Shown in pieces: positions 8,481 to 45,197 of a stretch of 50,204 nt of DNA (positions are counted from its first letter, which is position 1; each line of letters starts with the position of its first letter). The notes under the pieces were generated by a model that worked only from the letters and a program-made list of their open reading frames with translations, did no database searches and had not been told where the DNA came from. This stretch comes from Actinomycetota bacterium. Lineage in GTDB: Bacteria > Actinomycetota > JAUVYG01. A program made the translations under genes and the position numbers. The stretch covers positions 1 through 50,204 of the forward strand of contig JAUVYG010000003.1 of the NCBI GenBank assembly GCA_030603185.1, written 5' to 3'.

Positions 8481-9080
8481 CTAGGATTCTTTGGAAGAAT
8501 CTGAGTCCTTGTCGGAATCTTTTCCATCATCGAGAAGAGCGCCTAGTCTATCGGACCCTGACTCGTGATCGTCAATCGCGTCGGCACCATGGGCCTTGAA
8601 GTTGGGTCGAGTGATCACATAGAAAGCTATCACCGAGAAGACAACTACAACAATTGCCAAGGTACCGAACATCATCATGAAGAATTGGGCTCTGGTAGGG
8701 CCGGTGTCCAACTCGATGCTGTCACTAAATGCCACTGAGACATCACCGCTGGCGTCCTGAAGCTGAACCCACACTGCTTTAGTGCCCTCATCCTCTGATA
8801 GTGTCCAAAGCCTGTCGGCTTCGAAGGGCTCCCAACCCGCGTCTTCATCGTCGCCATCATTCCAGATTCGCATTTGGGAAATTTCATCCTCGCCGGTAAC
8901 TTTTTCAACCAACAGAGATACTTCTGTGGACTCGGCCTCTTCGTCTCCGTGGTTAATAGAGAGGGTTGCTTCGTTGATCTCGGCGCTGGCCGCTGTCCCT
9001 CCGATGATCACCAGCGCGAAGAGGCTAACGATCATGGTGACTACAATAATGGTTACCTTGGGAAGTGCATGTTGGTTCAC
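8481..9080 (-). CDS. Membrane-anchored extracytoplasmic Ig-like domain protein
   Basis: A 199-residue protein. An N-terminal hydrophobic segment (about 8-30) ending TAASAE looks like a cleavable signal peptide. Residues 35-130 form one bacterial Ig-like repeat: QMRIWNDGD, WEPFEADRLWTLSEDEGTK and VWVQLQDASGDVS match the repeated 'V.QMRFSNDG...WEPF...WTL..GDGTK.VYVQFKDAAGN' motif of large secreted proteins. A transmembrane helix follows (about 135-160) and then an acidic, Ser/Asp-rich cytoplasmic tail. The start is GTG at 9080 with GAGGA upstream. It lies between ecfT (51 nt) and truA (3 nt), so it is expressed with them. The role is unknown; docking on an ECF complex or an extracellular partner is conceivable. 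Confidence 0.72.
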   Translation of the reverse strand: MNQHALPKVTIIVVTMIVSLFALVIIGGTAASAEINEATLSINHGDEEAESTEVSLLVEKVTGEDEISQMRIWNDGDDEDAGWEPFEADRLWTLSEDEGTKAVWVQLQDASGDVSVAFSDSIELDTGPTRAQFFMMMFGTLAIVVVVFSVIAFYVITRPNFKAHGADAIDDHESGSDRLGALLDDGKDSDKDSDSSKES

Positions 9081-9131: not shown

Positions 9132-9950
9132 TCAGATAAGAATCAGGGCATGCAAAGCGGCCGACCCGAACACAGGGATGAAAACGGACAGTAGTAGTGT
9201 GTCACTGGGCCTCCAAACCATCGGAACCATCCGTGTTCTAGGTGATCCCTGACCGTAACCTTTTGCCTCTAGCGCCAGCGCAAGGCCTCGGGCGCGCCTC
9301 AAGGAACCAACGAAGAGGGGAACGACAATGGAGGTCACAGCCTTAGCCCTTTTCCCGATCCCGCCACGGCCCACATCGGATCCTCGCGCCATTTGAGCCC
9401 TGGATATCCTGTCTCCTTCTCCTACAACAGTCGGGACGAAACGAAGAGCGAGTCCCAGAGTCATCGCAAATCCGTCTACGTTCAAGTTCAAGCGCCTGAG
9501 CGGAGACAACAATGCGGACAAGCCATCCACGATATCCATTGAAGCGGTCGTCATGCCCAGCAAGCTGGTACCCACGATGATCACCAGAAGTCTGCCGGCG
9601 AAGAATGCTCCCGCGGTCAAACCATCCATTGATACGAAAACCGAGCCCAGCTGCCAGTAGGCGCCTGATACCGGCTGGGATATCTGGATGCCATGGATCA
9701 ACAGTGTGATTATCAATATGCTCAATAGGGGGCGAGCCCGACCCAGTAGCGAGCCCACACTGACCCCTGCAACGCTACCGACTACGAAGGCCGTGACCAG
9801 CAGCAGCAGCAGCCAGACAGACAGGGGAGTCGTCAAGGCGCTCACCGCAAACATCACTGTCAGAACGATCTTTACCCGGGGGTCTATTCTGTGCACGATC
9901 GTTGAGCCTGGGACATAGCCTCCGCCGGACATAGCCTTAAGGGATCTCAC
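9132..9950 (-). CDS. ecfT: ECF transporter transmembrane component EcfT
   Basis: A 272-residue protein with about five to six hydrophobic segments. The start region YVPGSTIVHRIDPRVKI is typical of EcfT. The two coupling-helix motifs are present: AQMARGSD (the first ARG-type motif) and ALALEAKGYG near residue 235 (the second). EcfT links the ATPase pair to substrate-specific S components for vitamin or metal uptake; none is encoded here, so this is probably a shared group II energizing module. The GTG start at 9950 overlaps the upstream ATPase stop (GTGA) and is preceded by GAGGT; an ATG at 9932 is possible. Confidence 0.92.
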   Translation of the reverse strand: MRSLKAMSGGGYVPGSTIVHRIDPRVKIVLTVMFAVSALTTPLSVWLLLLLVTAFVVGSVAGVSVGSLLGRARPLLSILIITLLIHGIQISQPVSGAYWQLGSVFVSMDGLTAGAFFAGRLLVIIVGTSLLGMTTASMDIVDGLSALLSPLRRLNLNVDGFAMTLGLALRFVPTVVGEGDRISRAQMARGSDVGRGGIGKRAKAVTSIVVPLFVGSLRRARGLALALEAKGYGQGSPRTRMVPMVWRPSDTLLLSVFIPVFGSAALHALILI

Positions 9951-10717
9951 CTAATGACCTCAAGAACTTGAGCAGGAGTAACCTGCATGCCTGAACCTCT
10001 GATCACTTCGGCCAATTCGACGCAGCGCGGAGCAGCGATTCGAGCCGCTGCCAACACTTCCTGGTCCGCAAGAACATCTAGGGGAGGCCCCTCGGCAACG
10101 ATTCTTCCATCTCGAAGAATGATCACACGGTCACAGGTCACTGCCATCTCGTCAAGATCATGCGAGGCCACAACGACCGAGAGTTCCCGGTCTTGAGCCA
10201 ACTCGGTCAGATTCTGCCAAAGGAGGTCTCGACTCCTACCGTCAAGCCCAACAGTCGGCTCATCCAGGATTAAGCAGTCAGGCTCGATAGCCAGTACCCC
10301 AGCGATGGCTGCTCTGCGCGCCTCATCTCCTGTGAGGGAGAATGGAGACATGCCCCCAACTCGATCTGGATCCAGATCCATTTTCATCAAAGACTGTGTG
10401 GCTCGCGAGCGCGCGTCCATACGATTCAGACCGCACACTCGCGGCCCGAACTCAACATCTGACAGCACAGTATCCTCAAAGAACTGCTCCTCAGGAAACT
10501 GCATAGCCATTCCCACTGTGCATCCCGCCCCAACATTCAGCTGTCCCGCTGTGGGTTGGAGCACCCCGGCCAACAATTGAAGAAGGGTAGATTTTCCGGA
10601 ACCTGAGGACCCTATGATTCCGAGCATCTCTCCCGGAGCAACCGAAAAGGAAACATCATCGATGCTCGGTCGACTGGCTTCAGGATAGACATGTCCCAGG
10701 TGAGATACCGCTATCAT
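9947..10717 (-). CDS. ecfA2: ECF transporter ATPase with intact Walker motifs but altered signature
   Basis: A 256-residue ABC ATPase. Walker A is GSSGSGKST (36-44), the Q-loop Gln is at 73 (AMQFPEEQ), Walker B is LILDEP with Glu153, and the switch His is His186 (ASHDLDE). The ABC signature, expected as LSGGQ/E, reads LTGDE (128-132). In the head-to-tail dimer this protein therefore supplies a complete Walker A/B/H set to one ATP site but a weak signature to the other. The ATG overlaps the stop of the preceding ATPase gene (ATGA). The A1/A2 naming follows gene order only. Confidence 0.9.
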   Translation of the reverse strand: MIAVSHLGHVYPEASRPSIDDVSFSVAPGEMLGIIGSSGSGKSTLLQLLAGVLQPTAGQLNVGAGCTVGMAMQFPEEQFFEDTVLSDVEFGPRVCGLNRMDARSRATQSLMKMDLDPDRVGGMSPFSLTGDEARRAAIAGVLAIEPDCLILDEPTVGLDGRSRDLLWQNLTELAQDRELSVVVASHDLDEMAVTCDRVIILRDGRIVAEGPPLDVLADQEVLAAARIAAPRCVELAEVIRGSGMQVTPAQVLEVIR

Positions 10718-11508
10718 GAAGCCACCCCCACAGAGCTGAGTGCTGATCTCAATTCCGATATGGTCACGGGAATATCCCGACCACTACGCTGGGGGATCAA
10801 TCCTGACATCCAGAGTTTTGTGGCGGAGGTTGGATCCATATCAGCACGGTCCAGGGCCTCAAGGTCACTTAGAACCTGATTAGGGGTACCGTGAGCTAAG
10901 ATTTTCCCCTGTGGCCCCAGGAGAACCACGCTATCTGCAAGAGTGGCTCTCTCGGCGTCCGAGGTCAGCTCTACCACACCCAGACCATCATCCTGAAGCC
11001 GCGACACCACTTCATCAAAGTGCTTGCGGTAACTTTGGTCGATCATGCTTGTTGCCTCATCCAATATGAGATAGTCCGGTGTTCCCGCAATTGCTCCGGC
11101 AAGAGCAACCATCTGCTTCTGGCCACCGGACAATTGATGAGGCGCTTTTGTAGCCAGCTCCATGATCCCCAGCTTCGCCAAAGTGTCTTGCACTCTTTCT
11201 CGGATGTAAGAGGGTTCGAGACCTTTACACTCAAGGGAAAAGGCAACATCGGCATCAACAGAGTGGCAGATGAACTGATCATCCGGATTGCAAGAGATGT
11301 ACGATACTTGTTCACCTGAACGGTGAACCGCTCCACTGTCGGGAGAGATCAAGCCAGCGACTACAGGACCGAGAACAGCCCTTCCGGACGCATGTGCGCC
11401 AAGTATTGCGGTGCGAGTTCCCGCATCAAGCCGCAGGCTAAGACCGACTATTGCATTGTTGGCCCCATCCTTCGAGGCGCAAACGGTGACTTCGCACAAT
11501 TCGATCAT
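10714..11508 (-). CDS. ecfA1: ECF transporter ATPase with degenerate Walker A and switch motif
   Basis: A 264-residue ABC ATPase homologue from the ATG at 11508. The frame is open to a TTG at 11556, but that lies in the terminator T-run, so the later start is preferred. The signature LSGGQ (126-130) and Walker B LILDEA (Glu151) are canonical. The P-loop, however, reads GAHASGRAV (37-45): the third glycine is Ala, the catalytic Lys is Arg43 and the Ser/Thr is Ala44. The switch His is Ser183 (LTSDAE). It probably cannot hydrolyse ATP in its own site but completes the partner's site through LSGGQ. It is the first gene after the rplQ terminator; no clear promoter is visible, so read-through is possible. 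Confidence 0.88.
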   Translation of the reverse strand: MIELCEVTVCASKDGANNAIVGLSLRLDAGTRTAILGAHASGRAVLGPVVAGLISPDSGAVHRSGEQVSYISCNPDDQFICHSVDADVAFSLECKGLEPSYIRERVQDTLAKLGIMELATKAPHQLSGGQKQMVALAGAIAGTPDYLILDEATSMIDQSYRKHFDEVVSRLQDDGLGVVELTSDAERATLADSVVLLGPQGKILAHGTPNQVLSDLEALDRADMDPTSATKLWMSGLIPQRSGRDIPVTISELRSALSSVGVAS

Positions 11509-11550: not shown

Positions 11551-11580
11551 AAACAAAAAAGGCGCCCCAAGGGGCGCCTT
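11551..11580 (-). terminator. Intrinsic terminator of the S10-spc-alpha ribosomal operon
   Basis: On the minus strand, AAGGCGCCCC pairs with GGGGCGCCTT (10-bp stem with a very short loop) and is followed by TTTTTTGTTT. It lies 15 nt past the rplQ stop codon. Confidence 0.9.
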
Positions 11581-31202: not shown

Positions 31203-34200
31203 CTAGCCCTTATCTCCCCGACCGACGGCCACCTCGGTGGCGCTCCCAGATCCCTCTGCAGTCTCACCTGACATACCCGCTTCTAGATCGCCTTCGGTGG
31301 CGCCCAGTAGCTGAGCAAGAGCCTCTCTTTGTGCCTGAAGCACTGACTCCGGCAGTTCAACCTCAACATCACGATAACGCGGCATTCCGGTTGCCGCCGG
31401 AATGAGCTTACCTATGATGACGTTCTCCTTCAGCCCGAGCAATGGATCACTCTTGCCGTCGATAGCTGCATCAGTCAGTACTCTCGTGGTCTCCTGGAAG
31501 GAGGCGGCTGAGAGATAACTGTCAGTTGCCAATGAAGCTTTGGTGATTCCAAGAATCACATTGGCTGCCGTTGCAGGCTCTCCGCCTTCAGCTCTAGCAC
31601 GGTCGTTCTCTTCGTCAAAGTGGAACTTCCCGACAACCTGAAGAGGAAGCATCAAAGTATCACCTGATTCAGCGACCTGAACTCTCTTCATCATCTGGCG
31701 AATGATCACCTCGATATGCTTATCGTTGATCTCAACGCCTTGCAGTCGATACACCTCTTGTACCTCTTGTACCAGGTATATCTGTGTTGCTTGAATTCCC
31801 TTGATGGCGAGAATGTCGTGCGGACTCAGATGACCCGGTGTCAGCTGCATCCCAGCCTTCACGTCATCACCCTCTGAAACCAGTAGTCGGTAACGCTTCG
31901 GAACCTTGTAGTCCTTGGTTACGACATCATCTCCGGAGCCACCAGTCAGCGTCAACGTCCTGGTTTTGTCCGCCTCAATGATTGAAATCTTTCCATCGAT
32001 CTCAGCAAGTACCGCCTGTCCCTTGGGCTTGCGGGCCTCAAAGAGCTCAACAATTCGTGGAAGACCATGCGTGATGTCGGCACCTACGACACCACCGGTG
32101 TGGAATGTACGCATTGTCAGCTGTGTTCCTGGCTCACCGATTGACTGAGCGGCAATGATACCAACGGCCTCACCAATGTCAGCCATCCGCTTATTGGCCA
32201 AACTGAATCCGTAGCATCGAGAGCAAATACCCTGTCGTGCTTCGCAAGTCATCACTGAGCGAACCATGACAGTTTCAAGCTTTGATGCTGCAAGCGCGTC
32301 GAGAATCTTTTCAGTGATTCCCCCGTTTCGGTCCACGATGACCTCACCGGTGTCCGGATCGACGACCTTTTCCACGGCCGCGCGGCCATACAAGCTGTGA
32401 TTCACGTCACCGTGCATGTCGTGTATCTGCTGCGGAATTCCGTCCTCAGTCCCGCAATCATCCTCGCGAATGATCACATCCTGAGACACATCGACCAAAC
32501 GACGGGTCAGGTAACCCGAATCAGCAGTTCTAAGCGCTGTATCGGCAAGCCCCTTTCGGGCACCGTGAGTAGATACGAAATACTCGAGAACGGTAAGGCC
32601 CTCGCGGAAGTTGGCTTTGATGGGCTGGTCGATCGTCTCACCCTTCGGGTTAGAAACCAGACCTCGCATGCCTGCCAGCTGGCGAATCTGCTTGATATTA
32701 CCTCGCGCACCAGAGGTCGCCATCAAGTAGATGGGATTGAATCGATCGAAGTTCTTCTCCATCGCGTCGGTCACGTCGTCCGTAGCCTGCGTCCATAGGT
32801 CCACGACCTGTTGGTGGCGCTCCTCATTCGTGACCAGACCCTTTCGGAACTGCTTCTCTATTTTCTCTACAGCTTCCTCGGGGGCCTTGAGGATATCCTT
32901 CTTGGTAGGAGGAATGGTTACATCCTTAAGTCCGATGGTGATACCCCCTCTAGTGGCGGCATGGAATCCCATTGACTTAATGCCATCAAGGATCTCAGCG
33001 ACATGAGCCGCATCATAGCGCTCTGCACAATCAGAGATTATCTGGCCGAGACGCTTCTTGGCCACGTCCTCGTTGACGTACGGATAGTCCTCCGGCAAAA
33101 CCGAGTTGAACTTGATCCGGCCCGGTGTGGTCTTTACCTTGTCACCATTGAAGCGCCTGACAATGACCAGCTGGCCCCTTTGAATGTCGCCAACGTCCCA
33201 AGCAGCGAGTACCTCGATCTCAGAAGCGAACCTAGCAAGACCCTTCTTGGTCTTTTTGCCAAGAATGTCTTCCTCGTGGATCTCGCCATCATCCACTGGC
33301 TTGTATCCCTTGTAGTCACCCCTGTGGGCGGTAAGGCTGAACACACCGAGAACGATGTCCTGGGTAGGAGTGGTGATAGGCCTTCCGTGAGCAGGAGACA
33401 GAATGTTATGTGAGGACAGCATCAGCAATCTCGCCTCAGCCTGCGCTTCAGCGGACAGAGGAAGGTGGACTGCCATCTGATCTCCGTCGAAGTCGGCGTT
33501 GAATGCCGTGCAGACGAGCGGGTGGATCTGAATAGCTTTTCCTTCGACGAGGATCGGCTCGAACGCCTGGATTCCAAGTCTATGCAGGGTTGGAGCTCTG
33601 TTGAGAAGAACCGGGTGTTCCCTGATTACTTCCTCAAGAACATCCCAGACCATATGCTTTCCACGCTCAACCAGTCGCTTTGCGGTCTTGATGTTCTGAG
33701 CGTGGCCCAGATCAACCAATCGCTTCATCACAAATGGCTTGAACAACTCGAGCGCCATGATCTTCGGGAGCCCGCACTGATGTAGCTTCAGGTTAGGTCC
33801 AACCACGATGACTGAACGACCAGAGTAATCTACTCGTTTTCCAAGCAGGTTCTGACGGAATCTTCCCTGCTTACCCTTAAGCATATCGGAAAGAGACTTC
33901 AGGGGCCTGTTGCCGGGGCCTGTGACCGGACGACCGCGTCTACCGTTGTCAAACAACGCGTCAACAGCCTCTTGCAGCATGCGCTTCTCGTTGTTGACAA
34001 TGATTTCCGGTGCACCAAGATCCAGCAGCCTGCGAAGCCTGTTGTTTCGGTTGATCACTCTTCTATATAGGTCATTGAGGTCGGATGTAGCGAATCGGCC
34101 ACCGTCAAGCTGCACCATCGGACGCAGATCCGGCGGAATAACAGGAACTACATCCAGGATCATCCACTCCGGCTTGTTGCCAGATGTACGAAAAGCGCCA

Positions 34201-35168
34201 ACGACCTTGAGTCTCTTAACTGCGCGCTGTCGCTTCTGTCCCGTAGCGGTACCGATCTCTTCTTTGAGCTTCTCGGCCTCAGCCTCAAGATCCATATGCT
34301 TAAGAAGATCCTTTACTGCCTCGGCACCCATGCCACCGCGGAAGTACTCGGAGTAGTTCTCACGCAGCTCGCGGAAGATATCTTCGTTGCTGATCATCTG
34401 CTTGACTTCAAGGGTCTTGAGAACCTCGAACGCCTCGCGAATAACTTCCTTACTGTGCTCGGTACGGTCGTCAACAGACTTGAGCTCCTTCTTGACGTCC
34501 TCTTCGAGCTTCTTCAGCTCACGTGGCTTTAGTGGTCTAAGCTCGATTACCTCAGGCTCGTCGGACTCCTCTTCTGGAGTCTCTTCCTCGCCCTCGACGA
34601 TCTCTTTCTCGACCGGAACACCCAGAAGGCGCTCTTCGCGTCCCTCGTCGACCAGTCTGATCTCGTCTTCGCGCCTAACATCGACCTGAGCGATCGAGTC
34701 CTCGAGCTCTTCGGCTAGGTCGGACATGTCCGCCTCGATCTTGTCTTTGTCGACATGAGTGATCATGTAGCTGGCAAAGTACAGGATCTTCTCGAGATCC
34801 TTTGGAGCTAGATCAAGAAGATACCCAAGGCGAGATGGTACCCCTTTGAAAAACCATATATGAGAGACAGGGGCCGCGAGCTCTATGTGAGCCATGCGAT
34901 CCCGTCGAACCTTGGCTCGAGTTACCTCAACGCCACAACGCTCGCATATGATTCCCTTGAAACGAATACGCTTGTACTTTCCGCAATAGCACTCCCAGTC
35001 CTTGGTTGGACCGAAGATCTTCTCGCAGAAAAGCCCATCTTTCTCTGGTTTTAGGGTTCTGTAGTTAATGGTCTCTGGCTTCTTGACCTCGCCGCTTGAT
35101 CTACCCCTAATCTGCTCGGGGGAAGCGAGCCCTATCTTTAGGGCACTGAAATGATTCACATCACGCAA
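31203..35168 (-). CDS. rpoC: DNA-directed RNA polymerase subunit beta'
   Basis: A 1321-residue beta' subunit. Zinc finger 1 is CYCGKYKR...CERCG near residues 60-80; the catalytic Mg-binding loop NADFDGDQ lies near 560; the trigger-loop and bridge-helix regions ([18 protein letters not shown]) and zinc site 2 ([13 protein letters not shown]) follow. An acidic coiled-coil insertion near residues 135-310 (including [11 protein letters not shown]) fits the actinobacterial lineage insertion. The start is placed at the TTG at 35168, with GGAGG 8 nt before, overlapping the rpoB stop by 8 nt; the frame stays open to 35225. A short Ser/Gly/Glu-rich tail ends the protein. Confidence 0.96.
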
Positions 35169-38100
35169 GGGCCTGGCCTCCAGACTTATCACTATCTTCT
35201 GTCGTTCCATCTCCGGTGTCCGCACTCATCGCTTGCTCTTCCGGCGAGCCAGGATCGGCTGGACTATCATTCTTGTCTGCCGGCTTCTTGGGCTTGTCCG
35301 AAGCTGGGCCGGTCAACCCTAGTGTGCCTCGAAGGTCGACACCAAGCTCTTCTGCAGTAGTGAAGATGTCATCCTCGGACTCTCTGAGCTCGATCTCTTG
35401 TCCTTCTGACCCAAGAACCTCGACGTTCAGGCTCAGGCTCTGCATCTCTTTGACTAGAACCTTGAATGACTCCGGGATTCCAGCTTCGGGGATGTTCTCG
35501 CCCTTGACTATCGCCTCGTATGTCCGCACTCGTCCGACAACATCGTCGGATTTTACGGTAAGCATCTCTTGTAGGGTGTGGGCGGCACCGTATGCCTCGA
35601 GAGCCCATACCTCCATCTCTCCGAATCTCTGTCCACCGAACTGCGCCTTACCACCCAGCGGCTGCTGAGTAACCAAGGAGTACGGTCCGGTCGAACGAGC
35701 ATGAATCTTATCGTCGACCAGGTGGTGCAGTTTAAGCACATAAATCTGACCAACAGTGATCGGGTGGTCGAACTTTTCTCCGGTGCGACCATGGAACAGC
35801 GTCGCCTTACCATCCTCGGGAAGGCCGGCCTTCTTGAGGGCTTCCCCGATCTCATCCTCGGTTGCGCCGTGGAAGACCGGAGTGGCAGTAAATGTCCGTG
35901 GATCGGCCTCGCCGTTGCGACGCCTAGACCCACCGGTGGGCCCGTCGAAACCTGCGGCAGCAGCCCACCCCAAGGTAGTCTCAAAAATCTGTCCGAGATT
36001 CATTCGTGAGGGAACACCTAGAGGGTTCAGAATAATATCAAGTGGCGTACCGTCCTCAAGGAACGGCATGTCCTCGACCGGCAGGATCTTCGAAATAACA
36101 CCCTTATTTCCGTGGCGACCAGCGAGCTTGTCACCTTCGGATATTTTCCTCTTCTGAGCAACGAACACTCTAACAAGCTTGTTCACACCTGGTGATAGCT
36201 CATCGCCGTTCTCCCTCGAGAAGGTATGCACATCGATAACCGTGCCGGTTTCACCGTGAGGAACCTTAAGGGAGGTGTCTCTGACCTCGCGGACCTTCTC
36301 GCCGAAGATCGCGCGAAGTAGTCTTTCCTCCGCCGTTAGCTCGGTCTCTCCCTTTGGAGTGACTTTGCCGCACAGAAGATCGCCGGGTCGTACCTCCGCA
36401 CCAACGCGGATAATACCTTCCTCGTCCATATCAGCCAGTGACTCTTCACCGATATTCGGAATGTCCCTTGTGATCTCTTCTGGTCCGAGCTTCGTGTCTC
36501 TGGCTTCGACCTCGTGCTCTTCTATGTGGATAGAGGTAAGCACGTCCTCTTTGACCAGACGCTCACTGATAATGATAGCGTCCTCGTAGTTGTAGCCCTC
36601 CCATGGCATGAAGGCCACAAGTAGGTTGCGTCCGAGTGCCAGCTCACCCTCATCGGTAGCTGCACCATCAGCGAGTACCTGTCCAGCTGTTACCTTGTCG
36701 CCCACGCTGACGAGAGGCCTCTCGTTGATACAAGTACCTTGGTTGGACCTGCGGAACTTCTGGACACTATAGGTGTCGCGCTCTTTATTGCTTCTCTCGA
36801 CGGTGATGCTCTGAGCATCTACCTCGACAATCTTTCCGGGATTCTGAGCTGTAATGACCTCGCCAGTATCCTTAACGGCTCGGTGCTCTACTCCGGTTCC
36901 CACAAGGGGTGCCTCGGTGTTGAGCAGTGGAACGGCCTGACGCTGCATGTTCGAACCCATGAGCGCTCGGTTCGCATCGTCGTGCTCAAGGAACGGGATA
37001 AGTGCCGTCGCCACAGACACGATCTGGGCGGGAGCAACATCCATGTAGTCCACTTCAGTAGGAGCAACTCGCGTAACTTCCTCTTCTTTCTCGCGAACGA
37101 GAACAGATGGACCGGCGAGTTTGCCTTTGCTATCAACCTCGGCATTCGCCTGAGCGATAACATAGACGTCCTCTTCGTCCGCCGTCAGGTACTGAATCTC
37201 ATCAGTTACAACCCCCTTGACCACCTTGAGGTAAGGAGTCTCGATGAATCCGAAGTCGTTGAGTGTTCCGTATGTCGCAAGAGATCCGATGAGTCCGATG
37301 TTCGGACCTTCCGGCGTCTCAATAGGACACATACGTCCATAGTGGGACGGATGAACATCTCGAACCTCGAAGCCGGCTCTCTCTCGGGAAAGACCGCCAG
37401 GTCCAAGCGCAGAAAGTCGACGCTTGTGTGTTAGTCCGGATAGTGGGTTGGTTTGATCCATGAACTGTGACAACTGTGAAGATCCGAAGAACTCCTTGAT
37501 GGCAGCCACAACTGGACGGATATTAACCAACGCCTGTGGGGTGATGGTTTCAGTGTCTACAGTGTTCATTCGCTCACGAATGACACGCTCCATTCTCTGG
37601 AGACCAACTCTGAACTGTCCCTTGATAAGCTCACCGACGGATCGAACGCGACGATTGCCGAAGTGATCGATATCGTCAACGTGGTAGCCGGGTTCACCCT
37701 GATGCAGTTTTACCAAGTATATGATGGCATCACGCAGGTCAGCGATGGTCAGAACAGTGGTATCGATAGGTACATCGACGCCAAGCTTCTTATTGAGCTT
37801 GTAGCGACCAACCTTCGCCAGGTCATACCTGTTCGGGTTGAAGAACAACGTGTTCACAAGGTTCTTTGCGGAATCGATTGTTGGAGGCTCACCTGGGCGA
37901 AGACGCCTGTAGAGCTCAAACAAAGCCTCTTCCTGAGTCTCTGTCGCATCCTTCTCGATCGTGTTCTGCATCGAAGGAGCGTTGTCGAAGGTCTCGAGTA
38001 ACGCCTGGTTGGTGTCTAATCCGGGCTCACCGAGGGCCTTGAGAAGAACACTAATAGGCAGACGGCGCTTGCGATCGATTCGCACGCCGACGATGTCCTT

Positions 38101-38622
38101 CTTGTCTACATCGAACTCGAGCCAAGCACCCCGGCTCGGGATCATCTTGGCGCTGAACAACTCTTTGTCAGATGTTTTATCCATCTCGGTGTCGAAGTAG
38201 ACACCCGGTGAACGGACTAGCTGTGAGACCACAACTCGCTCGGTCCCGTTAATAACGAAGGTTCCCCGCGATGTCATCAGTGGGAAATCACCCATGAAGA
38301 CGTTCTGCTCTTTTATCTCGCCCGTGTCTTTATTGATAAAGCGGACAAGAACATTGAGCGGAGCCGCGTAAGTGTGATCCTTCTCGCGACACTCGAATTC
38401 AGAGAATTTAATTTCCCCGAATTCATGCGCACCAAATTCGAGGACTAGGTTTCCCGTAAAGTCCTCGATGGGTGATATCTCTTGAAATGCCTGTTTTAGT
38501 CCCTCTATTTTGAACTTCTCGAAGGATCTGGTCTGAATCTGGATCAGGTCTGGAAGCTGGAGTTTCTCTTCGATCTTGCCGAAAGAGCGCCGAGTACGAA
38601 CGCCCGAAGGGGCTGATGTCAA
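35161..38622 (-). CDS. rpoB: DNA-directed RNA polymerase subunit beta
   Basis: A 1153-residue beta subunit. The rifampicin pocket [30 protein letters not shown] is summarised by [20 protein letters not shown] (about residue 395), with the usual resistance positions (Asp of FMDQ, His of THKRR, Ser of RLSALG) wild type. [23 protein letters not shown] and the C-terminal [20 protein letters not shown] are conserved. A low-complexity tail of about 45 residues (Asp, Pro, Lys, Ser rich) extends past the usual end. The start is a TTG at 38622 with AAGGGGG before it. It has its own promoter and overlaps rpoC. Confidence 0.96.
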
Positions 38623-38680
38623 AGCTTTCCCCCTTTAGTGGTTATTGGAACACAACAAAGCCGACACACGGCAAACAGAG

Positions 38681-38709
38681 AACATACCATTGCAATCTGC
38701 TGCCGTCAA
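38681..38709 (-). promoter_or_regulatory. Promoter of rpoBC in the rplL-rpoB spacer
   Basis: On the minus strand TTGACG (38709-38704) and TATGTT (38686-38681) are 17 nt apart, giving a leader of about 50 nt before rpoB. It lies directly behind the long hairpin after rplL, so rpoBC can be transcribed apart from rplJL. Confidence 0.7.
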
Positions 38710-38717
38710 CTGATACA

Positions 38718-38770
38718 GCCCGCCCGGATTAGTAGCTACGATGTCGGATTACGCAGCTCCCCGGGCGGGC
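38718..38770 (-). promoter_or_regulatory. Long hairpin between rplL and rpoB (attenuator or RNase III site)
   Basis: Outer arms gcccgcccgg (38718-38727) and ccgggcgggc (38761-38770) are perfectly complementary over 10 bp. A second 7-bp stem (agctgcg with cgtagct on the minus strand, one G-U pair) forms inside. No T-run follows, so this is more like the partial attenuator/processing site found at the same junction in E. coli than a full terminator. It starts 17 nt after rplL. Confidence 0.6.
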
Positions 38771-38787
38771 CTCAGTTAAAAGCGTAT

Positions 38788-39168
38788 TTACTTAAGCTCT
38801 ACAGTAGCGCCAGCTGCTTCGAGCTGCTCCTTGAACTTGTCGGCCTCGTCCTTTGTAACGCCTTCCTTGACGGGAGTTGGAGCACTCTCGACAAGATCCT
38901 TCGCTTCTTTTAGGCCAAGGCTGGTGATTGCGCGAACTTCCTTGATTACCTGAATCTTCTTGTCGCCAGCAGCAGTGAGGACCACGTCGAACTCGGTCTT
39001 CTCTTCTGAGCCACCGGCGTCTCCGCCTGCAGCTGGACCAGCAGCCATAGCCATTGGCATTGCAGCGCTAACGCCGAATACCTCTTCGAGCTCAGATACT
39101 AGCTCTGAGAGCTCGATAGCGCTCATCTCTTTGATAGCGTTTATCATTTCGTCTTTCGTAAGTGCCAT
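38788..39168 (-). CDS. rplL: 50S ribosomal protein L7/L12
   Basis: A 126-residue stalk protein. The N-terminal dimerisation domain ([20 protein letters not shown]) is joined by an Ala/Gly/Pro hinge ([12 protein letters not shown]) to the factor-binding C-terminal domain ([40 protein letters not shown]). It recruits EF-G and EF-Tu. It lies after rplJ. Confidence 0.97.
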
Positions 39169-39195
39169 TTATCCTCCTAGGGATATTCAGTGCGG

Positions 39196-39720
39196 CTACG
39201 CCGCCTCTTCCTTTTGTTTCACGATCTGACCTAGCACAGTCGCAAGTGACTGTGGTGGTCGGTTGAGTACACGAACCAGTCCCGACAATGGGGAGTTGAG
39301 TGAGCCAACGAGCTTTGCAAGCAGTTCGTCGCGGGACGGTAGGTTGGCAAGTACCACTACCTGACTAGCGTCGATTACTTTGCCGTCAAGCAGTCCTGCT
39401 CGGATCTCGAGCTTTTCTGAATCCTTACCGAAGTCATTCAGAGCCTTCGCGGCTGCGGTAATATCGCCACCGCAAAACGCAATAGCGATAGGTCCCTGAA
39501 GATGTTCATCTAGGCCCTCAATGCCAGCTTCGCTGGCCGCTCTTTTTACAAGGGTATTCTTGAGAACTCGAAATGTGGTCTGGTCGCTCGAAAGCTTCCG
39601 GCGCAGTTCAGTGATGTCTGCAACAGTTAGTCCACGGTAGTCCGAGAGAATAAGGTCCGAGTGCCCTCTAAGGAGCTCGGCTATCTCTTGTACTTTTTGA
39701 ACCTTTTCAGCTGTAGGCAT
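39196..39720 (-). CDS. rplJ: 50S ribosomal protein L10
   Basis: A 174-residue L10, the stalk base that binds L12 dimers through its C-terminal helix. Starting at the ATG at 39720, MPTAEKVQKVQEIAELLRGH, DYRGLTVADITELRRKL and FRVLKNTLVKRAA are conserved. A near-perfect AAAGGAGGTGA lies just before the start; the frame continues upstream into the leader but that part is not coding. An L10-type leader with a terminator precedes it. Confidence 0.96.
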   Translation of the reverse strand: MPTAEKVQKVQEIAELLRGHSDLILSDYRGLTVADITELRRKLSSDQTTFRVLKNTLVKRAASEAGIEGLDEHLQGPIAIAFCGGDITAAAKALNDFGKDSEKLEIRAGLLDGKVIDASQVVVLANLPSRDELLAKLVGSLNSPLSGLVRVLNRPPQSLATVLGQIVKQKEEAA

Positions 39721-39767
39721 ACACTTCACCTCCTTTCGCCGGAAATTTAATTGGTCTGGGGGCCAAT

Positions 39768-39798
39768 AAAAAAAGCCCCTCCTTAAGACGGAGGGGCT
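39768..39798 (-). terminator. Leader terminator (attenuator) before rplJ
   Basis: On the minus strand AGCCCCTCC (39782-39774 complement side) pairs with GGAGGGGCT to give a 9-bp stem with a 7-nt loop, followed by seven T. It lies inside the rplJ leader, 48 nt before the start codon and about 90 nt after the promoter, and not behind any gene on this strand. Confidence 0.82.
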
Positions 39799-39886
39799 AA
39801 AAATCACTCGCGCGAAGTTACCCATTCCGACCTCGGCAGGAAATTAAGTCCAACAAGTTGGACGCCTACTGTCTTAAGTCCGGCAA
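39799..39886 (-). promoter_or_regulatory. L10 leader (autoregulatory rplJL leader RNA)
   Basis: The minus-strand leader contains GGACTTAATTTCCTGCCGAG, matching the conserved core of the L10(L12)4-binding leader found ahead of rplJ in many bacteria (Rfam L10_leader). A preceding GTCCAACTTGTTGGAC hairpin and the downstream terminator complete the element. In B. subtilis L10-L12 binding controls a terminator in this leader; the same mechanism is likely here. Confidence 0.75.
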
Positions 39887-39892
39887 GTGAGA

Positions 39893-39921
39893 AGGATATC
39901 ATTTAGCCCTCTCCCAGTCAA
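39893..39921 (-). promoter_or_regulatory. Promoter of rplJL
   Basis: On the minus strand TTGACT (39921-39916) and TATCCT (39898-39893) are 17 nt apart. The expected transcription start is just ahead of the L10 leader. Confidence 0.75.
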
Positions 39922-39966
39922 TAGTCTGAGTTTTGTCGTAGAATAAAGGTTACCCGAAGGAGGAGT

Positions 39967-40101
39967 ATGGACATCAACTGGTTGCCCGTCGTCGTCATAC
40001 TAATCGTGGTTGCTGTATTCGGCTTTCGAAGCTATTTGGAAAAAAAGAGGCGCGACCACAAGACCGACACTTCCCAGTCCAAGTGGAGCGACCGCCGCTA
40101 G
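39967..40101 (+). CDS. Small single-span membrane protein, opposite strand within the ribosomal cluster
   Basis: A 44-residue ORF starting MDINWLPVVVILIVVAV. One transmembrane helix (about residues 5-20) is followed by a short basic, polar tail (YLEKKRRDHKTD...WSDRR), so the C terminus is probably cytoplasmic. A strong ribosome-binding site (aaggagga) ends 5 nt before the ATG, and a TAGAAT -10-like element lies about 20 nt further up. It is the only plus-strand coding sequence in the cluster. It sits between the rplJ promoter and the 3' end of rplA (2-nt gap, convergent). I do not recognise it; function unknown. Confidence 0.62.
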   Translation: MDINWLPVVVILIVVAVFGFRSYLEKKRRDHKTDTSQSKWSDRR

Positions 40102-40103
40102 GG

Positions 40104-40817
40104 CTACTCGCTGTCTTCCAGGATGTCCTTTGTGGCTATTGAGTCTACCCTCGCCGAAGGACCCATGGTCGAGGTCATGAAAATACTCTTAACGTATTTG
40201 CCCTTTGAACCAGATGGTTTAGCTCGCATGATCTCATCTACCACTGAAGCATAGTTCTCGAGAAGAGCCTGCTCATCGAAGGAAGCCTTGCCGATAGGAA
40301 CGTGACAGATGCCGAACTTATCGTTGCGGTACTCTACCTTGCCGGCCTTGATGTCTTTTACTGCTTTTGCCACATCAAAGGTGACGGTTCCAACCTTTGG
40401 GTTCGGCATCAAGCCCCGTGGCCCAAGAGCCCTACCGAGCTTTCCAACTGTTCCCATAACATCCGGAGTGGCAATACAAGCATCGAAGTCCATCTTGCCC
40501 TTCTCGATGTCTGCTGCAAGTTCAGCAAGTCCAACAAGCTCGGCTCCGGCATCAGTGGCCTCTTTAGCCTTCTCGCCTTCAGCAAACACGGCAACCCGGA
40601 TGTTCTTTCCTGTTCCGTTTGGAAGACTGATTGTACCTCGTAGCGATTGATCAGCTTGGCGGGGGTCGATACCCAAACGAAAGTGGGCCTCGATAGTTTC
40701 GTCGAATTTTGCCTTTGCGCCGACTTTGACGACTGCGACTGCATCCTTGGGACTGTAGGTCTTGTCCACGTCAACCGCGTCGGCGGCAGACTTGTACCTT
40801 TTGCCTTTTTGGGCCAT
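40104..40817 (-). CDS. rplA: 50S ribosomal protein L1
   Basis: A 237-residue L1 at the E-site stalk; in E. coli it represses rpl[57 protein letters not shown] and [10 protein letters not shown] are conserved. The ATG at 40817, with AGGAGG upstream, is preferred over the start at 40838. It follows rplK by 93 nt that include a hairpin. Confidence 0.96.
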
Positions 40818-40875
40818 GCGTTTTCCTCCTGTGGTCAAACAGCGGGGTGTTCCCGCCTCCCACCTAGGGGTTTAA

Positions 40876-40894
40876 GGAGCGCCGCTGGCGCTCC
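40876..40894 (-). repeat. Hairpin in the rplK-rplA spacer
   Basis: Arms ggagcgcc (40876-40883) and ggcgctcc (40887-40894) form an 8-bp stem with a 3-nt loop, 17 nt after the rplK stop. On the minus strand TTAAACC follows, so termination is at most partial. It could bind L1 or be a processing site. Confidence 0.45.
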
Positions 40895-40910
40895 ATTTTT
40901 CACGAACTAT

Positions 40911-41336
40911 CTAGTCGATGACCTCAAGGCCCATGGACCTTGCGGTGCCGGCGATTATCTTGGCGCCTGCGTCGACATCATTTGCACTGATGTCATCCAT
41001 CTTCGTCTGTGCGATCTCTTTGCACTGATCCAGGGTCACAGTTCCAACCTTATCGCGGTTAGGTTCGCCCGATCCTGACTTAATGCCGGCAGCGGCCTTA
41101 AGCAGAACCGCAGCAGGGGGAGATTTCGTTATGAACGAAAAGGTGCGGTCCTCATACACGGTGATCTCAACAGGAATGATCGTGCCTGACTGCTCTTTAG
41201 TCTTATCATTATAGGCCTTGCAGAAGTCCATGATGTTTACACCATGCTGACCCAGTGCGGGACCTACGGGTGGAGCGGGATTCGCACCGCCGGCAGGTAT
41301 CTGAAGTTTGATTAGTGACAGGACTTTCTTGGCCAT
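40911..41336 (-). CDS. rplK: 50S ribosomal protein L11
   Basis: A 141-residue L11 of the GTPase-associated centre, target of thiopeptides and needed for the stringent response. [20 protein letters not shown] (proline-rich N-terminal domain), [17 protein letters not shown] and [12 protein letters not shown] at the C terminus are conserved. It follows nusG by 9 nt. Confidence 0.97.
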
Positions 41337-41345
41337 GGGTTCTCC

Positions 41346-41885
41346 CTACAGTTTTGCTACCTGGTCAAACGCCAGTTCAACAGGTGTATCTCTTCCGAAA
41401 ATATTTACTAGTACCTTTAGCTTGCTCTGATCGACGTTGATCTCACTAATAGTTCCTTCGAACTCTGCGAGAGGTCCGTCGTTGACCTTGACGCTCTCAC
41501 CGACTGTGAACTCAGTCTTAGGCTTCGGCTTCGAGAACGTCTTACGCTTGAGTATTCGTTCTACCTCGAGCTCGGACAGCGGTGTCGGTTTGCCGCCCTG
41601 CCCAACGAATCCGGTGACTCCCGGTGTGTTGCGAACAACGTACCAAGAGTCGTCGTCCAGCTGCATGCTAACCAGGATGTATCCCGGAAAGACCTTGCGC
41701 TGCACAACATTTTTCTTGCGACCCTTGACCTCGATTACATCCTCGGTCGGGATCTCGATGTCAAAGATCTTGTCAAGAACCTCCATTGAGCGCACTCGGT
41801 GCTCAAGGTTGGTCTTAACTTTATTCTCGTATCCTGAATAGGTATGTACGACATACCATCTACGATTTCCGGTGGCGAGAGCCAC
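41346..41885 (-). CDS. nusG: Transcription termination/antitermination protein NusG
   Basis: A 179-residue NusG. The NGN domain ([41 protein letters not shown]) binds RNA polymerase; the KOW domain ([18 protein letters not shown]) contacts Rho or S10. It lacks the large N-terminal extension of many Actinobacteria. The start is a GTG at 41885 with AGGAG upstream. It follows secE by 11 nt. Confidence 0.97.
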
Positions 41886-41896
41886 AGATCACACTC

Positions 41897-42274
41897 CTAT
41901 ATGTTCAAAGCTCCAGCGATGCTTCTAAATCCCCAGTCCAACAGCCCAATATAAAGACCCAGAACCACTATTGCAACAAGAACAGCCGAGGTAGAAGCGA
42001 GTAGCTGCTTGCGCCCAGGCCATGTAACCCGCTTCATCTCACCGCGTACGTCCCTAAGAAATGAAGGGATTCTCTTTATCCGCTCACCTATCCCGACGGA
42101 TTGGGAGGTTTTTGCCTTGTCCTTCTTGTTGTCCTTGCCCTTGGGCTTTACGTCGCTCGCCACTGAAAGCTTTGCGCCGCTGTCAGCTGCTGCCTTTGGG
42201 GTCGCTCCGGACTCACGCTTAGCCTTGGGCTTCGGCGCGGGCTTCTTTTTCTTTGTCTTCTTGTTTTTTGCCAT
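41897..42274 (-). CDS. secE: Preprotein translocase subunit SecE
   Basis: A 125-residue SecE. The amphipathic helix FLRDVRGEMKRVTWPGRKQLL and one transmembrane helix (STSAVLVAIVVLGLYIGLLD) form the functional core at the C terminus. The first 65 residues are a Lys/Ala/Pro-rich low-complexity extension, as in other Actinobacteria. It clamps SecY. It lies between tRNA-Trp and nusG. Confidence 0.95.
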   Translation of the reverse strand: MAKNKKTKKKKPAPKPKAKRESGATPKAAADSGAKLSVASDVKPKGKDNKKDKAKTSQSVGIGERIKRIPSFLRDVRGEMKRVTWPGRKQLLASTSAVLVAIVVLGLYIGLLDWGFRSIAGALNI

Positions 42275-42353
42275 ATATTTCTCTCACGTAGCGACTACGC
42301 CCAACGGCTACAGCGGACGCCAAATTAACCTGTACTACTTTGTTGGACTCGGC

Positions 42354-42426
42354 AGGGCAGGAGGGATTCGAACCCCCAACATCCGGTTTTGGAGACCGGC
42401 GCTCTACCAGTTGGAGCTACTGCCCT
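42354..42426 (-). tRNA. tRNA-Trp (anticodon CCA)
   Basis: On the minus strand acceptor AGGGCAG pairs with CTGCCCT, the anticodon arm is CCGGT-CTCCAAA-ACCGG giving anticodon CCA, and the T arm contains GGGGGTTCGAATCCC. The 3' CCA is not encoded (GCCG follows), unlike the tRNA-Gly in this window. Its place just upstream of secE-nusG is common in bacteria. Confidence 0.95.
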
Positions 42427-42443
42427 ATCTGGCGAACCCGTCA

Positions 42444-42472
42444 ACTTTAGCACATACCTACCCATGTCCCAA
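42444..42472 (-). promoter_or_regulatory. Promoter of tRNA-Trp-secE-nusG
   Basis: On the minus strand TTGGGA (42472-42467) and TAAAGT (42449-42444) are 17 nt apart, with TG-C just before the -10 (extended -10). The expected start is about 10 nt before the tRNA 5' end. Confidence 0.7.
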
Positions 42473-42501
42473 CCATTTTCCTGGGGCCATAAAACCCCCC
42501 G

Positions 42502-43158
42502 TCAGTGGTCTCTTTTGACCCTGATCGTTTGAGCCAAATCTAAACCGATGGCTTGGAGCCGCCCCTCGATGTTGATGTGAATGGGGCCCTCGAAAGGAGA
42601 CCTCTCTTCAATCGAGGTTCTAGCGCCGGGTCTCAGCCCCAATGAATCCAGGTACTGAAGAAGTTTTGAATCATCCTCTGGGACGATAGCAACAGTGCAC
42701 TGCTCTCCGATCGCACAATCAGCCAATCGATCATTTGGCTCATCGGCAATAGAACCATCCGGCCCCGGAATCGGATAACCATGAGGGCAAGTATCAGGCT
42801 CTCCCAGCATCCGGGCTATTCCCGCTTCAACCTCTGGGGAAAGAATGTGTTCGAACCTACACGCCTCGTCATGGACCTTGTCCCACGAAAGTCCGACCAT
42901 ATCTGTGAGAAATCTCTCTGACAGGCGGTGTTTGCGCACCAAATGTAGGGCCTTGGCCCTGCCTTCCTGGGTGAGCCTGATGATCATGTCAGGATTCCGG
43001 GTGATCAAACCTTGGTCGACGAGCTTTTTCATCATCTCAGCCACCGAGGCTGGCGAAACGTCAAGCTGCTCGGCTAGTCGAACAGCTCGGAGTCCTGACG
43101 TCTCAGAACTCAGCTTATATATTGATTCCAGATATTCTTCCACAGTCGCTGAAGGCAA
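42502..43158 (-). CDS. DtxR/IdeR-family metal-dependent repressor with FeoA domain
   Basis: A 218-residue regulator. The winged-helix DNA-binding domain is at 1-60 (VEEYLESIYKLSSE, VRLAEQLDVSPASVAEMM), the metal-binding/dimerisation domain at about 65-140 (HRLSERFLTDMVGLSWDKVHDEACRFEHILS, PDTCPHGYPIPG), and a C-terminal SH3/FeoA-like domain at about 150-215. The Cys-Pro-His-Gly and His residues are the usual Fe(II)/Mn(II) ligands. The start is a TTG at 43158 with AGGGGG upstream. A palindrome overlapping its own transcription start suggests autoregulation. It is the first gene left of oriC. Confidence 0.9.
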   Translation of the reverse strand: MPSATVEEYLESIYKLSSETSGLRAVRLAEQLDVSPASVAEMMKKLVDQGLITRNPDMIIRLTQEGRAKALHLVRKHRLSERFLTDMVGLSWDKVHDEACRFEHILSPEVEAGIARMLGEPDTCPHGYPIPGPDGSIADEPNDRLADCAIGEQCTVAIVPEDDSKLLQYLDSLGLRPGARTSIEERSPFEGPIHINIEGRLQAIGLDLAQTIRVKRDH

Positions 43159-43180
43159 GTTATTACCCCCTAATGGGATT

Positions 43181-43198
43181 TGTTAGGTCTGCTTAACA
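43181..43198. promoter_or_regulatory. Candidate metal-repressor operator ahead of the DtxR-family gene
   Basis: Arms tgttagg and cttaaca are separated by 4 nt, six of seven positions being symmetric. The site covers the predicted transcription start. It resembles half of the TTAGGTTAGGCTAACCTAA-type DtxR box but is not a full match. Confidence 0.45.
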
Positions 43199-43199
43199 C

Positions 43200-43228
43200 A
43201 TTTTATTAACACCCAGCTCATTGGTCAA
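43200..43228 (-). promoter_or_regulatory. Promoter of the DtxR-family gene
   Basis: On the minus strand TTGACC (43228-43223) and TAAAAT (43205-43200) are 17 nt apart. The -35 end touches a long imperfect inverted repeat that begins oriC. Confidence 0.7.
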
Positions 43229-43229
43229 C

Positions 43230-43264
43230 GTCTGGGGGTTGACCGGGCGATGTCACCCCCAGAC
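43230..43264. repeat. Long inverted repeat at the left edge of oriC
   Basis: gtctggggg-t-tgac and gtca-cccccagac pair over 13 bp with a single bulged t and an 8-nt loop. It lies between the DtxR-family promoter and the first DnaA box. It may be a replication-control site, a protein-binding site or a cruciform; there is no adjacent gene end that needs a terminator. Confidence 0.55.
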
Positions 43265-43530
43265 AGTCAACCGGTTATCCACACCTGTGGAAACGCCTGT
43301 GTATAACTACACACGGCCAGGTTAATGGCATAATATGCTCAGTAAGGCATTGGATGAGTTTTGGCCCAAGCACAGCTAGATATGGTTTGAAGCAAAACTC
43401 CCACATTGTCCACAGGAGCCTGTGGATAACTTTGGGATAGAACAGGTATTTCGGGGTTACGGGCCGCACTAGGACGGTGCTAGTATGAACTCTCGTTGTT
43501 CATGAAAAGTTATTCACAAGGGGTCGGGTA

Positions 43531-44952
43531 TTGGAAAGACAGCTGCTTGAGACCGAGCTTGAATCGGTTTGGGAACAGAGCCTGGGTTTGGTCAAGAACC
43601 AGCTCAGCACTCAGACCTTCAAGACCTGGTTCGACCGTACAAGGCCGGTTTCGGTCAGTGGTGAGGTCGTGACCATCGCAACCCCCAACTTATTCACCAA
43701 GGAATGGCTTGAGGATAGATACATCCCGATCATCCAAAAGGCCATCTCGGAGATTACCGGGAGCACTGCGACAGTGCGCCTGGTTGTTGAGGCTACACCG
43801 GCTGCCGAGGCGGACCGACCGCTGCAGAATGAATCCCGACCGGAACCCGCTGAGAGAAACGAAGTCGATGATGAATACATTCGCGAACTTGCAGTTTCAT
43901 CAGTAAAAAATCTTAACCCCAAATACCACTTTGAGTCCTTCGTCATCGGGGCGAGTAATCGATTCGCGCACGCAGCTGCCCTGGCAGTGGCCGAGAAGCC
44001 GGCTCATGCTTACAATCCGCTCTTCATCTATGGAGGAGTCGGACTGGGCAAGACACACCTGTTGCATGCGATTGGTCACTATGTAAGCGAACACACGCCC
44101 CACTTGCAGGTGAAGTACGTTTCTTCTGAGAAGTTCACCAACGATTTTATCAATTCGATTCGAGATAAAGACAAGATTGCTGGTTTCCAGCGTAAGTACC
44201 GCAATGTTGACGTTCTATTGATCGACGATATTCAGTTCCTAGAGAATAAGGAGGCTACCCAGGAGGAGTTCTTCCATACTTTCAACACTCTTCATGGAGC
44301 CAACAAACAGATAGTGATCAGTTCAGATCGTCCACCCAAGGAGATCGCCACTCTTGAGGACAGGCTCAGGTCCAGGTTCGAGTGGGGTTTGATCACCGAC
44401 GTCCAACCTCCCGATCTTGAGACTCGCATAGCCATTCTTCGGAAAAAAGCGCAGTCAGAGCAATTATCTATTTCGAATGATGTACTAGAGTTCATAGCCT
44501 CGAATATCCAGTCGAATATCAGAGAGCTCGAGGGTGCGCTCATTCGAGTCTTGGCATTCTCTTCTCTGACAAACCAGCCTATAGACCTATCACTGGCCGA
44601 GGATGTTCTGAGAAGTCTCCTTCCAGATCAGGCAATGAGACCGATCGATATCGCCCTCATCCAACAAGAGGCGTGTCAGTTCTATGGGGTCAAACACCCA
44701 GACCTGCTTGGACCCAAGAGATCTCAGAATATTGTCTATCCACGTCAAATAGCCATGTATCTCACACGTGAGATGACGGATTGCTCATTGCCGGCCATTG
44801 GTCGTCAGTTCGGAAACCGCGATCACACGACGGTCATGCACGCCTGTAAAAGAATTGAGAAGCTCATCTCTGAACGAAGAGAGACCTACAACGAGATTCA
44901 GACCTTAACCGGGTCCATTAAGCGTATGGCGACCATGAGCCCAGGGGCTTGA
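43531..44952 (+). CDS. dnaA: Chromosomal replication initiator protein DnaA
   Basis: A 473-residue DnaA. Domain I (about 1-85) contains [13 protein letters not shown]; a short acidic linker follows; the AAA+ domain starts near 130 with Walker [11 protein letters not shown] (168-177) and Walker B LLIDDIQF (229-236); the C-terminal DNA-binding domain holds [20 protein letters not shown]. It melts oriC and loads helicase. The start is a TTG at 43531 with AAGGGG upstream. DnaA boxes on both sides imply autoregulation. Confidence 0.97.
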
Positions 44953-45197
44953 TATGCCCGATTATGACCTCTGTCTCTACTGTGGATAATGTGTGGAGTA
45001 CTCGTGTATAAGTTGATAAGTTATCCAGAGCTTGGGACGGAATACGCATTAATGTGGATAAGCTGCGATTCTTACACACAAGATCAACGTTTGTATCCAC
45101 AACCTAATAAGGCTCACAACCTGCGTGAAGGTGCGTTATTCACATTATCAACACCCCCTATTATGACTACGTATTTTGTATAGAAAGGAAATGAATA
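44953..45197. other. oriC: oriC, right DnaA-box cluster (dnaA-dnaN spacer)
   Basis: A 245-nt spacer with three perfect boxes: tgtggataa at 44981-44989 and 45053-45061 (both minus) and ttattcaca at 45136-45144 (plus). One-mismatch boxes are cgtgtataa 45003-45011, ttatccaga 45021-45029 and gtatccaca 45093-45101; ttatcaaca follows at 45145. The 40 nt before dnaN are AT-rich and are the likeliest unwinding element, giving the bipartite layout known from B. subtilis. Confidence 0.82.

Follow-up and report, generated by a model that had tools for sequence, protein, structure and literature searches.

The 50,204-nucleotide stretch analyzed in this study (hereafter, the window; positions 1 to 50,204 of contig JAUVYG010000003.1, Actinomycetota bacterium, assembly GCA_030603185.1) carries on its minus strand the genes ecfA1 (10714..11508), ecfA2 (9947..10717), and ecfT (9132..9950). 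By sequence, these genes are assigned to the EcfA1-EcfA2-EcfT motor of a group II (type III) energy-coupling factor (ECF) importer, in which changes at otherwise conserved positions of the two ATPases are concentrated in one of the two composite ATP sites. These results suggest that the EcfA1:EcfA2 heterodimer probably has one canonical and one degenerate ATP site. The canonical site would consist of the Walker A, Walker B, Q-loop, and switch His of EcfA2 and the LSGGQ signature of EcfA1, and the degenerate site of the Walker side of EcfA1 and the LTGDE signature of EcfA2.

Each ATP site is built from the Walker A and B motifs and the A-, Q-, and H-loops of one nucleotide-binding domain (NBD) and the signature motif of the other NBD (PMC7756269). 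We compared these motifs across 239 distinct adjacent or fused EcfA1/EcfA2 pairs, collected within the phylum and among named genomes (Firmicutes in nearly all cases); the named-genome pairs, which were Firmicutes-type plus one Atribacteria record among the matches listed, served as outgroup pairs. The Walker A motif of EcfA1 reads GAHASGRAV (residues 37-45; 11374..11400, minus strand, as are all motifs given below), with Lys replaced by Arg43 and Ser by Ala44, and this Lys is kept in all other surveyed EcfA1 proteins. Additionally, the A-loop Tyr, found in 98% of the other EcfA1 proteins, is Ala (residue 11; 11476..11478), the Q-loop Gln is Cys73 (11290..11292) with the subsequent Q-helix PDDQ retained, and the switch His is replaced by Ser183 in the triplet TSD (10957..10965). 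EcfA1 retains the Walker B motif LILDE with its catalytic Glu (residues 147-151; 11056..11070) and an intact LSGGQ signature (residues 126-130; 11119..11133), which completes the canonical site. In EcfA2, the Walker A motif GSSGSGKST (residues 36-44; 10586..10612), the Q-loop Gln, the Walker B motif LILDE (residues 149-153; 10259..10273), and the switch His186 (SHD; 10157..10165) are intact. Its signature is degenerate, LTGDE (residues 128-132; 10322..10336), with Thr in place of Ser and Asp in place of the second Gly; this Ser and this Gly are each kept in 99.6% of the other EcfA2 proteins. The Gly-to-Asp change falls at the position of CFTR G551D, in which ATP-dependent gating is severely reduced (PMC10202470). 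Group II modules usually, though not by definition, carry a full set of ATP-site motifs in each ATPase, and this module does not. The initial annotation had read Arg43/Ala44, Ser183, the LSGGQ of EcfA1, and the LTGDE of EcfA2 exactly, as well as the intact Walker A, Walker B Glu, and His186 of EcfA2, and had overlooked the losses of the A-loop Tyr and Q-loop Gln in EcfA1.

The distribution of changes over columns conserved at 93% or more across the remaining 238 pairs indicates that one site has been dismantled, rather than that both proteins have decayed generally, and this is the strongest result of the analysis. Changes affect 7 of the 12 conserved columns on the Walker side of EcfA1 and 2 of 5 in the signature and D-loop of EcfA2, as compared with none of 10 on the Walker side of EcfA2 and 1 of 5 in the signature and D-loop of EcfA1 (a conservative Leu-to-Ile change). 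The remaining conserved columns are changed at 2 of 17 positions in EcfA1 and 0 of 12 in EcfA2 (2/29 in total). The site formed by the EcfA1 Walker side and the EcfA2 signature thus differs at 9/17 positions, as against 1/15 for its counterpart (Fisher p = 0.007) and 3/44 for all conserved positions outside it (p = 0.0002). These p values assume independent columns, an assumption that does not hold fully, as neighboring residues of a motif may change jointly. The 93% set does not include the switch His of EcfA1, which varies more among the surveyed pairs, and the loss of this His adds to the damaged site. These counts support the pairing proposed in the initial annotation, by which intact halves meet each other and damaged halves meet each other.

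In the proposed motor, ecfA1, ecfA2, and ecfT would be expressed and functional, and the heterodimer would close on one ATP, with hydrolysis at the canonical site only. The degenerate interface would have weak affinity for nucleotide or none and would serve as a hinge, and closure of the NBDs around the one live site would each time drive EcfT and expel the S component. Only a heterodimer could form a complete site, because an EcfA2 homodimer would carry two LTGDE signatures and an EcfA1 homodimer would lack the Walker A Lys. Such a cycle is feasible, since ATP-binding cassette (ABC) exporters with a degenerate site transport with one hydrolyzing site, as described for ABCG5/G8 and Pdr5 (PMC7756269). 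Even the canonical ECF module of Lactobacillus delbrueckii has two unlike sites: in the wild type, ATP had been hydrolyzed at one site, which held ADP, and was retained at the other (PMC10368641); the authors do not settle the order of ATP use.

Several observations weigh against a one-site motor. The L. delbrueckii module needs both catalytic Glu residues, as either single Glu-to-Gln mutant abolishes ATPase activity and transport (PMC10368641), whereas a single live site is proposed here; an ECF motor with one live site thus has to operate in another way. The catalytic Glu of EcfA1 is retained, the state is seen in a single draft genome compared without close relatives, and the terminal branch leading to the window pair is longer than that of any other among the 239. 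No S component was detected in the genome with PF12822, PF02632 (BioY), and PF07155, other S families being outside the search. A weak PF07155 match (L359 1417-1917, G000:C147) was rejected as an S component, because the gene follows immediately on one resembling MreC and its product looks like MreD; its similarity to the S family is distant only. Through its X-Arg-X motifs, EcfT contacts the ATPases (PMC3246461); the first motif is intact (ARG; 9381..9389), and the second reads AKG (9258..9266), with Lys in place of an Arg that is near-universal in relatives having the region and is Lys elsewhere only in L309.

Some of these observations would also suit a module in decay, in which selection is relaxed for want of a cognate S component and missense changes gather ahead of stop codons. 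The failure to detect an S component with three families, the long terminal branch together with the lowest median identity for EcfA1, and the changed second coupling Arg of EcfT all favor decay, as does the absence of approximately 13 residues after the third strand in both EcfA1 and EcfA2 (window 11305-11334 and 10517-10546). This double gap is found only in this pair among the 239, and some EcfA2 proteins alone also lack the stretch. However, the main counter-argument is the clustering of the changes in one composite site, and general decay is disfavored because the Walker side of EcfA2 and the rest of both proteins are spared, EcfA2 retaining 10/10 Walker-side and 12/12 other conserved positions. 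Furthermore, none of the three overlapping reading frames is interrupted, and the S families searched are not exhaustive. We therefore consider decay fairly unlikely; if the module is decaying, it would be a caution against naming functional vitamin importers by homology only.

A further alternative is residual ATP binding and slow hydrolysis at the degenerate site, so that the two sites would differ in rate and not in kind. The intact LILDE of EcfA1 fits this explanation, ABC exporters with a degenerate site are reported to hold non-hydrolyzed ATP there (PMC7756269), and, as position 3 of LSGGQ is variable in many ECF pairs, a site could survive drift of its signature alone. On the other hand, the Walker A Lys and Ser, A-loop Tyr, Q-loop Gln, switch His, and the Ser and Gly of the partner signature are all changed, and because of this, binding and catalysis should both suffer. 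A slow second site is accordingly judged unlikely. As for the earlier description of one live and one dead site, the asymmetry stands, whereas "dead" goes beyond what is established, given the surviving Walker B Glu.

The survey places the one-site pattern of the window pair at an extreme. The Walker A Lys is lost in 1/239 pairs, the window pair only, and 153/239 pairs show no departure in Walker-side and signature motifs, which agrees with the statement of the initial annotation that such asymmetry is not a standard ECF feature. Among the surveyed pairs, the full form is unique to this one, although milder one-sided weakening recurs, in either site. Co-occurrence of the same four motif changes in relatives, which had been raised as a check, was not found, the exact set being absent elsewhere among the 239 pairs. 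The closest relatives compared match the host genome at phylum level and at no lower rank, from class down to genus; the survey is also non-random, since the scan patterns and E-value ranking favor canonical sequences. As the nearest genomes share approximately 73% RpoB identity with the host genome, a value that is almost flat over many families, the host appears to be a deep lone lineage; its gene order and neighboring genes point to Actinomycetota. As far as this sampling goes, the loss of the Walker A Lys would be an extreme, lineage-specific, and derived state, and because the surveyed relatives keep this Lys, the one-site pair would have arisen in this lineage by loss from a two-site ancestor.

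Damage to one composite site, in milder form, was also found in other ECF families of the survey (f11, f24, f21, f27, f63, and f46). In these one-sided pairs, changes mostly concern the switch His, the Q-loop, or the Walker B Glu, and the Walker A Lys is always intact. Families f11 and f24 are affected in the site opposite to that of the window pair: in f11, the EcfA2 switch His is lost and EcfA1 has the signature LS[PSAL]G and a D-loop Asp-to-Pro change, and in f24 (L025, L031, and L152), EcfA2 has lost the switch His and has Asp for the Walker B Glu, with LS[EI]GL in EcfA1. The f11 clade comprises the pairs L020, L024, L165, L168, L169, L171, L172, L175, and L181. The same site as in the window pair is affected in f21 and f27, where the EcfA1 switch His is mostly Gln and the EcfA2 signature is LSxGE. 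Families f63 and f46 combine a Gln-to-Glu change in the EcfA1 Q-loop with LS[DN]GE in EcfA2. Family f76, of the same class as f21 and f27, has the EcfA1 His-to-Gln change with an intact EcfA2 signature (LSGGE); in this class (L310-L338), EcfA1 usually carries Gln (TQ) at the switch His position. Both subunits are changed in L282 (family f53), with Q-loop Glu and LSDGE in EcfA1 and Q-loop Ser, LSKGE, and a switch His-to-Gln change in EcfA2. A change at position 3 of LSGGQ was rejected as an inactivating change, since this position varies in approximately 20% of EcfA1 proteins and in both subunits of some families. Such changes and Gln for the switch His are mild and need not inactivate a site.

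Walker-side damage confined to one subunit was present in 42 pairs. The signature departed from the consensus in the partner only in 27 of them, in both subunits in 1, and in neither in 14, while in no pair did it depart in the same subunit only. On the tree, no more than about 12 changes account for these pairs, and after correction for phylogeny, same-site co-occurrence gave 2.9 versus 0.2 and 1.8 versus 0 contrasts, which is the expected direction with too few contrasts for significance. The association of Walker-side damage with partner-signature damage in ECF transporters is thus suggestive, and not significant once relatedness is corrected for. A broader reading is that single-ATP-site motors arose repeatedly among ECF importers, each time independently and by loss of one or the other composite site as a unit, the window pair being the most complete case. 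We offer it tentatively, as falling somewhat short of probable. If true, the need of L. delbrueckii for two sites would not be universal among ECF transporters.

Compared with characterized group II ECF modules (L. delbrueckii ECF-FolT2, ECF-PanT, and ECF-CbrT, the Lactobacillus brevis module, and Thermotoga maritima EcfAA'), the window module has the same A1-A2-T order, fold, Q-helix, EcfT docking residues, and heterodimeric ATPase. The L. delbrueckii subunits are described with all motifs (PMC5997447), whereas one composite site is dismantled here. Asymmetry of this kind is, as the initial annotation stated, known from exporters, and there are importer precedents too. ABCG5/G8 resembles the window pair in its Walker A Lys-to-Arg change and altered signature (PMC7756269). 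However, the degenerate-site exporters (ABCG5/G8, Pdr5, TAP, TM287/288, and BmrCD) work in the export direction with membrane domains unrelated to ECF, and many lack the Walker B Glu retained here. The Bacillus subtilis importers RbsA and NupO have a site that is degenerate through loss of the Walker A Lys and a changed signature, as predicted from sequence (PMC11466899); unlike the window pair, their NBDs are fused, and they belong to the type II importers, which have a binding protein, rather than to the ECF transporters. We found no description of a degenerate site in ECF transporters in the open-access literature searched, which is weak evidence of absence because subscription papers were mostly outside the search. 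A natural one-site motor would be a ready-made test system for asking how many ATP molecules an ECF transport cycle uses and in what order, and the milder site-consistent cases would allow the steps of site loss to be studied, in either site.

The assignment of the three proteins is supported by family models and predicted structures. The best NCBIfam models are TIGR04520 (ECF_ATPase_1) for EcfA1 and TIGR04521 (ECF_ATPase_2) for EcfA2, both with scores under their curated cut-offs, and the best Protein Data Bank (PDB) sequence match of EcfA2 is the EcfA2 chain 4huq_A (E 5e-45). Single-chain AlphaFold models had predicted local distance difference test (pLDDT) values of 91.5 for EcfA1, whose best PDB matches by Foldseek are ECF ATPases, and 96.5 for EcfA2. 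The Q-helix is retained in both ATPases (NPDDQ in EcfA1 and FPEEQ in EcfA2), as is the Asp of the acidic groove, and both features have roles in docking on EcfT (PMC6828968). The confident folds, the docking features, and the intact, overlapping genes of the locus count in favor of the proposed one-site motor, as does the 27-to-0 association of damage in other ECF pairs. EcfT is the single PF02361 match in the genome (E 1.4e-33) and lies directly 3' of the ATPase genes.

On the minus strand, the genes follow the order rpsM-rpsK-rpsD-rpoA-rplQ, then ecfA1-ecfA2-ecfT, a small membrane-anchored protein gene, and truA, and canonical EcfA pairs adjoin rpoA in relatives as well. We placed the start of ecfA1 at the ATG at 11508. 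Its open reading frame extends 5' to a TTG at 11556, which is unlikely to be the start because it lies within the U tail of a terminator-like hairpin between rplQ and ecfA1 (11559..11580, minus). The pairs ecfA1/ecfA2 and ecfA2/ecfT each overlap by 4 bases. Errors in sequencing or assembly could be invoked, as could a chimeric join between two genes, since the assembly has 147 contigs and the state is confined to this genome. This explanation is highly improbable: it would have to produce more than 10 independent in-frame amino-acid changes and whole-codon deletions, while the frames, gene overlaps, and neighbors are intact and the composition of the locus is near that of the other genes of the window. 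The gene between ecfT and truA (8481-9080) encodes a product of 199 aa for which membrane spans are predicted; its C-terminus is acidic, and it has no Pfam match. Additionally, dnaA and dnaN lie a few kilobases from nusG, rplA, rplJ, and rpoBC in the window (31203-46298), an arrangement resembling an origin region.
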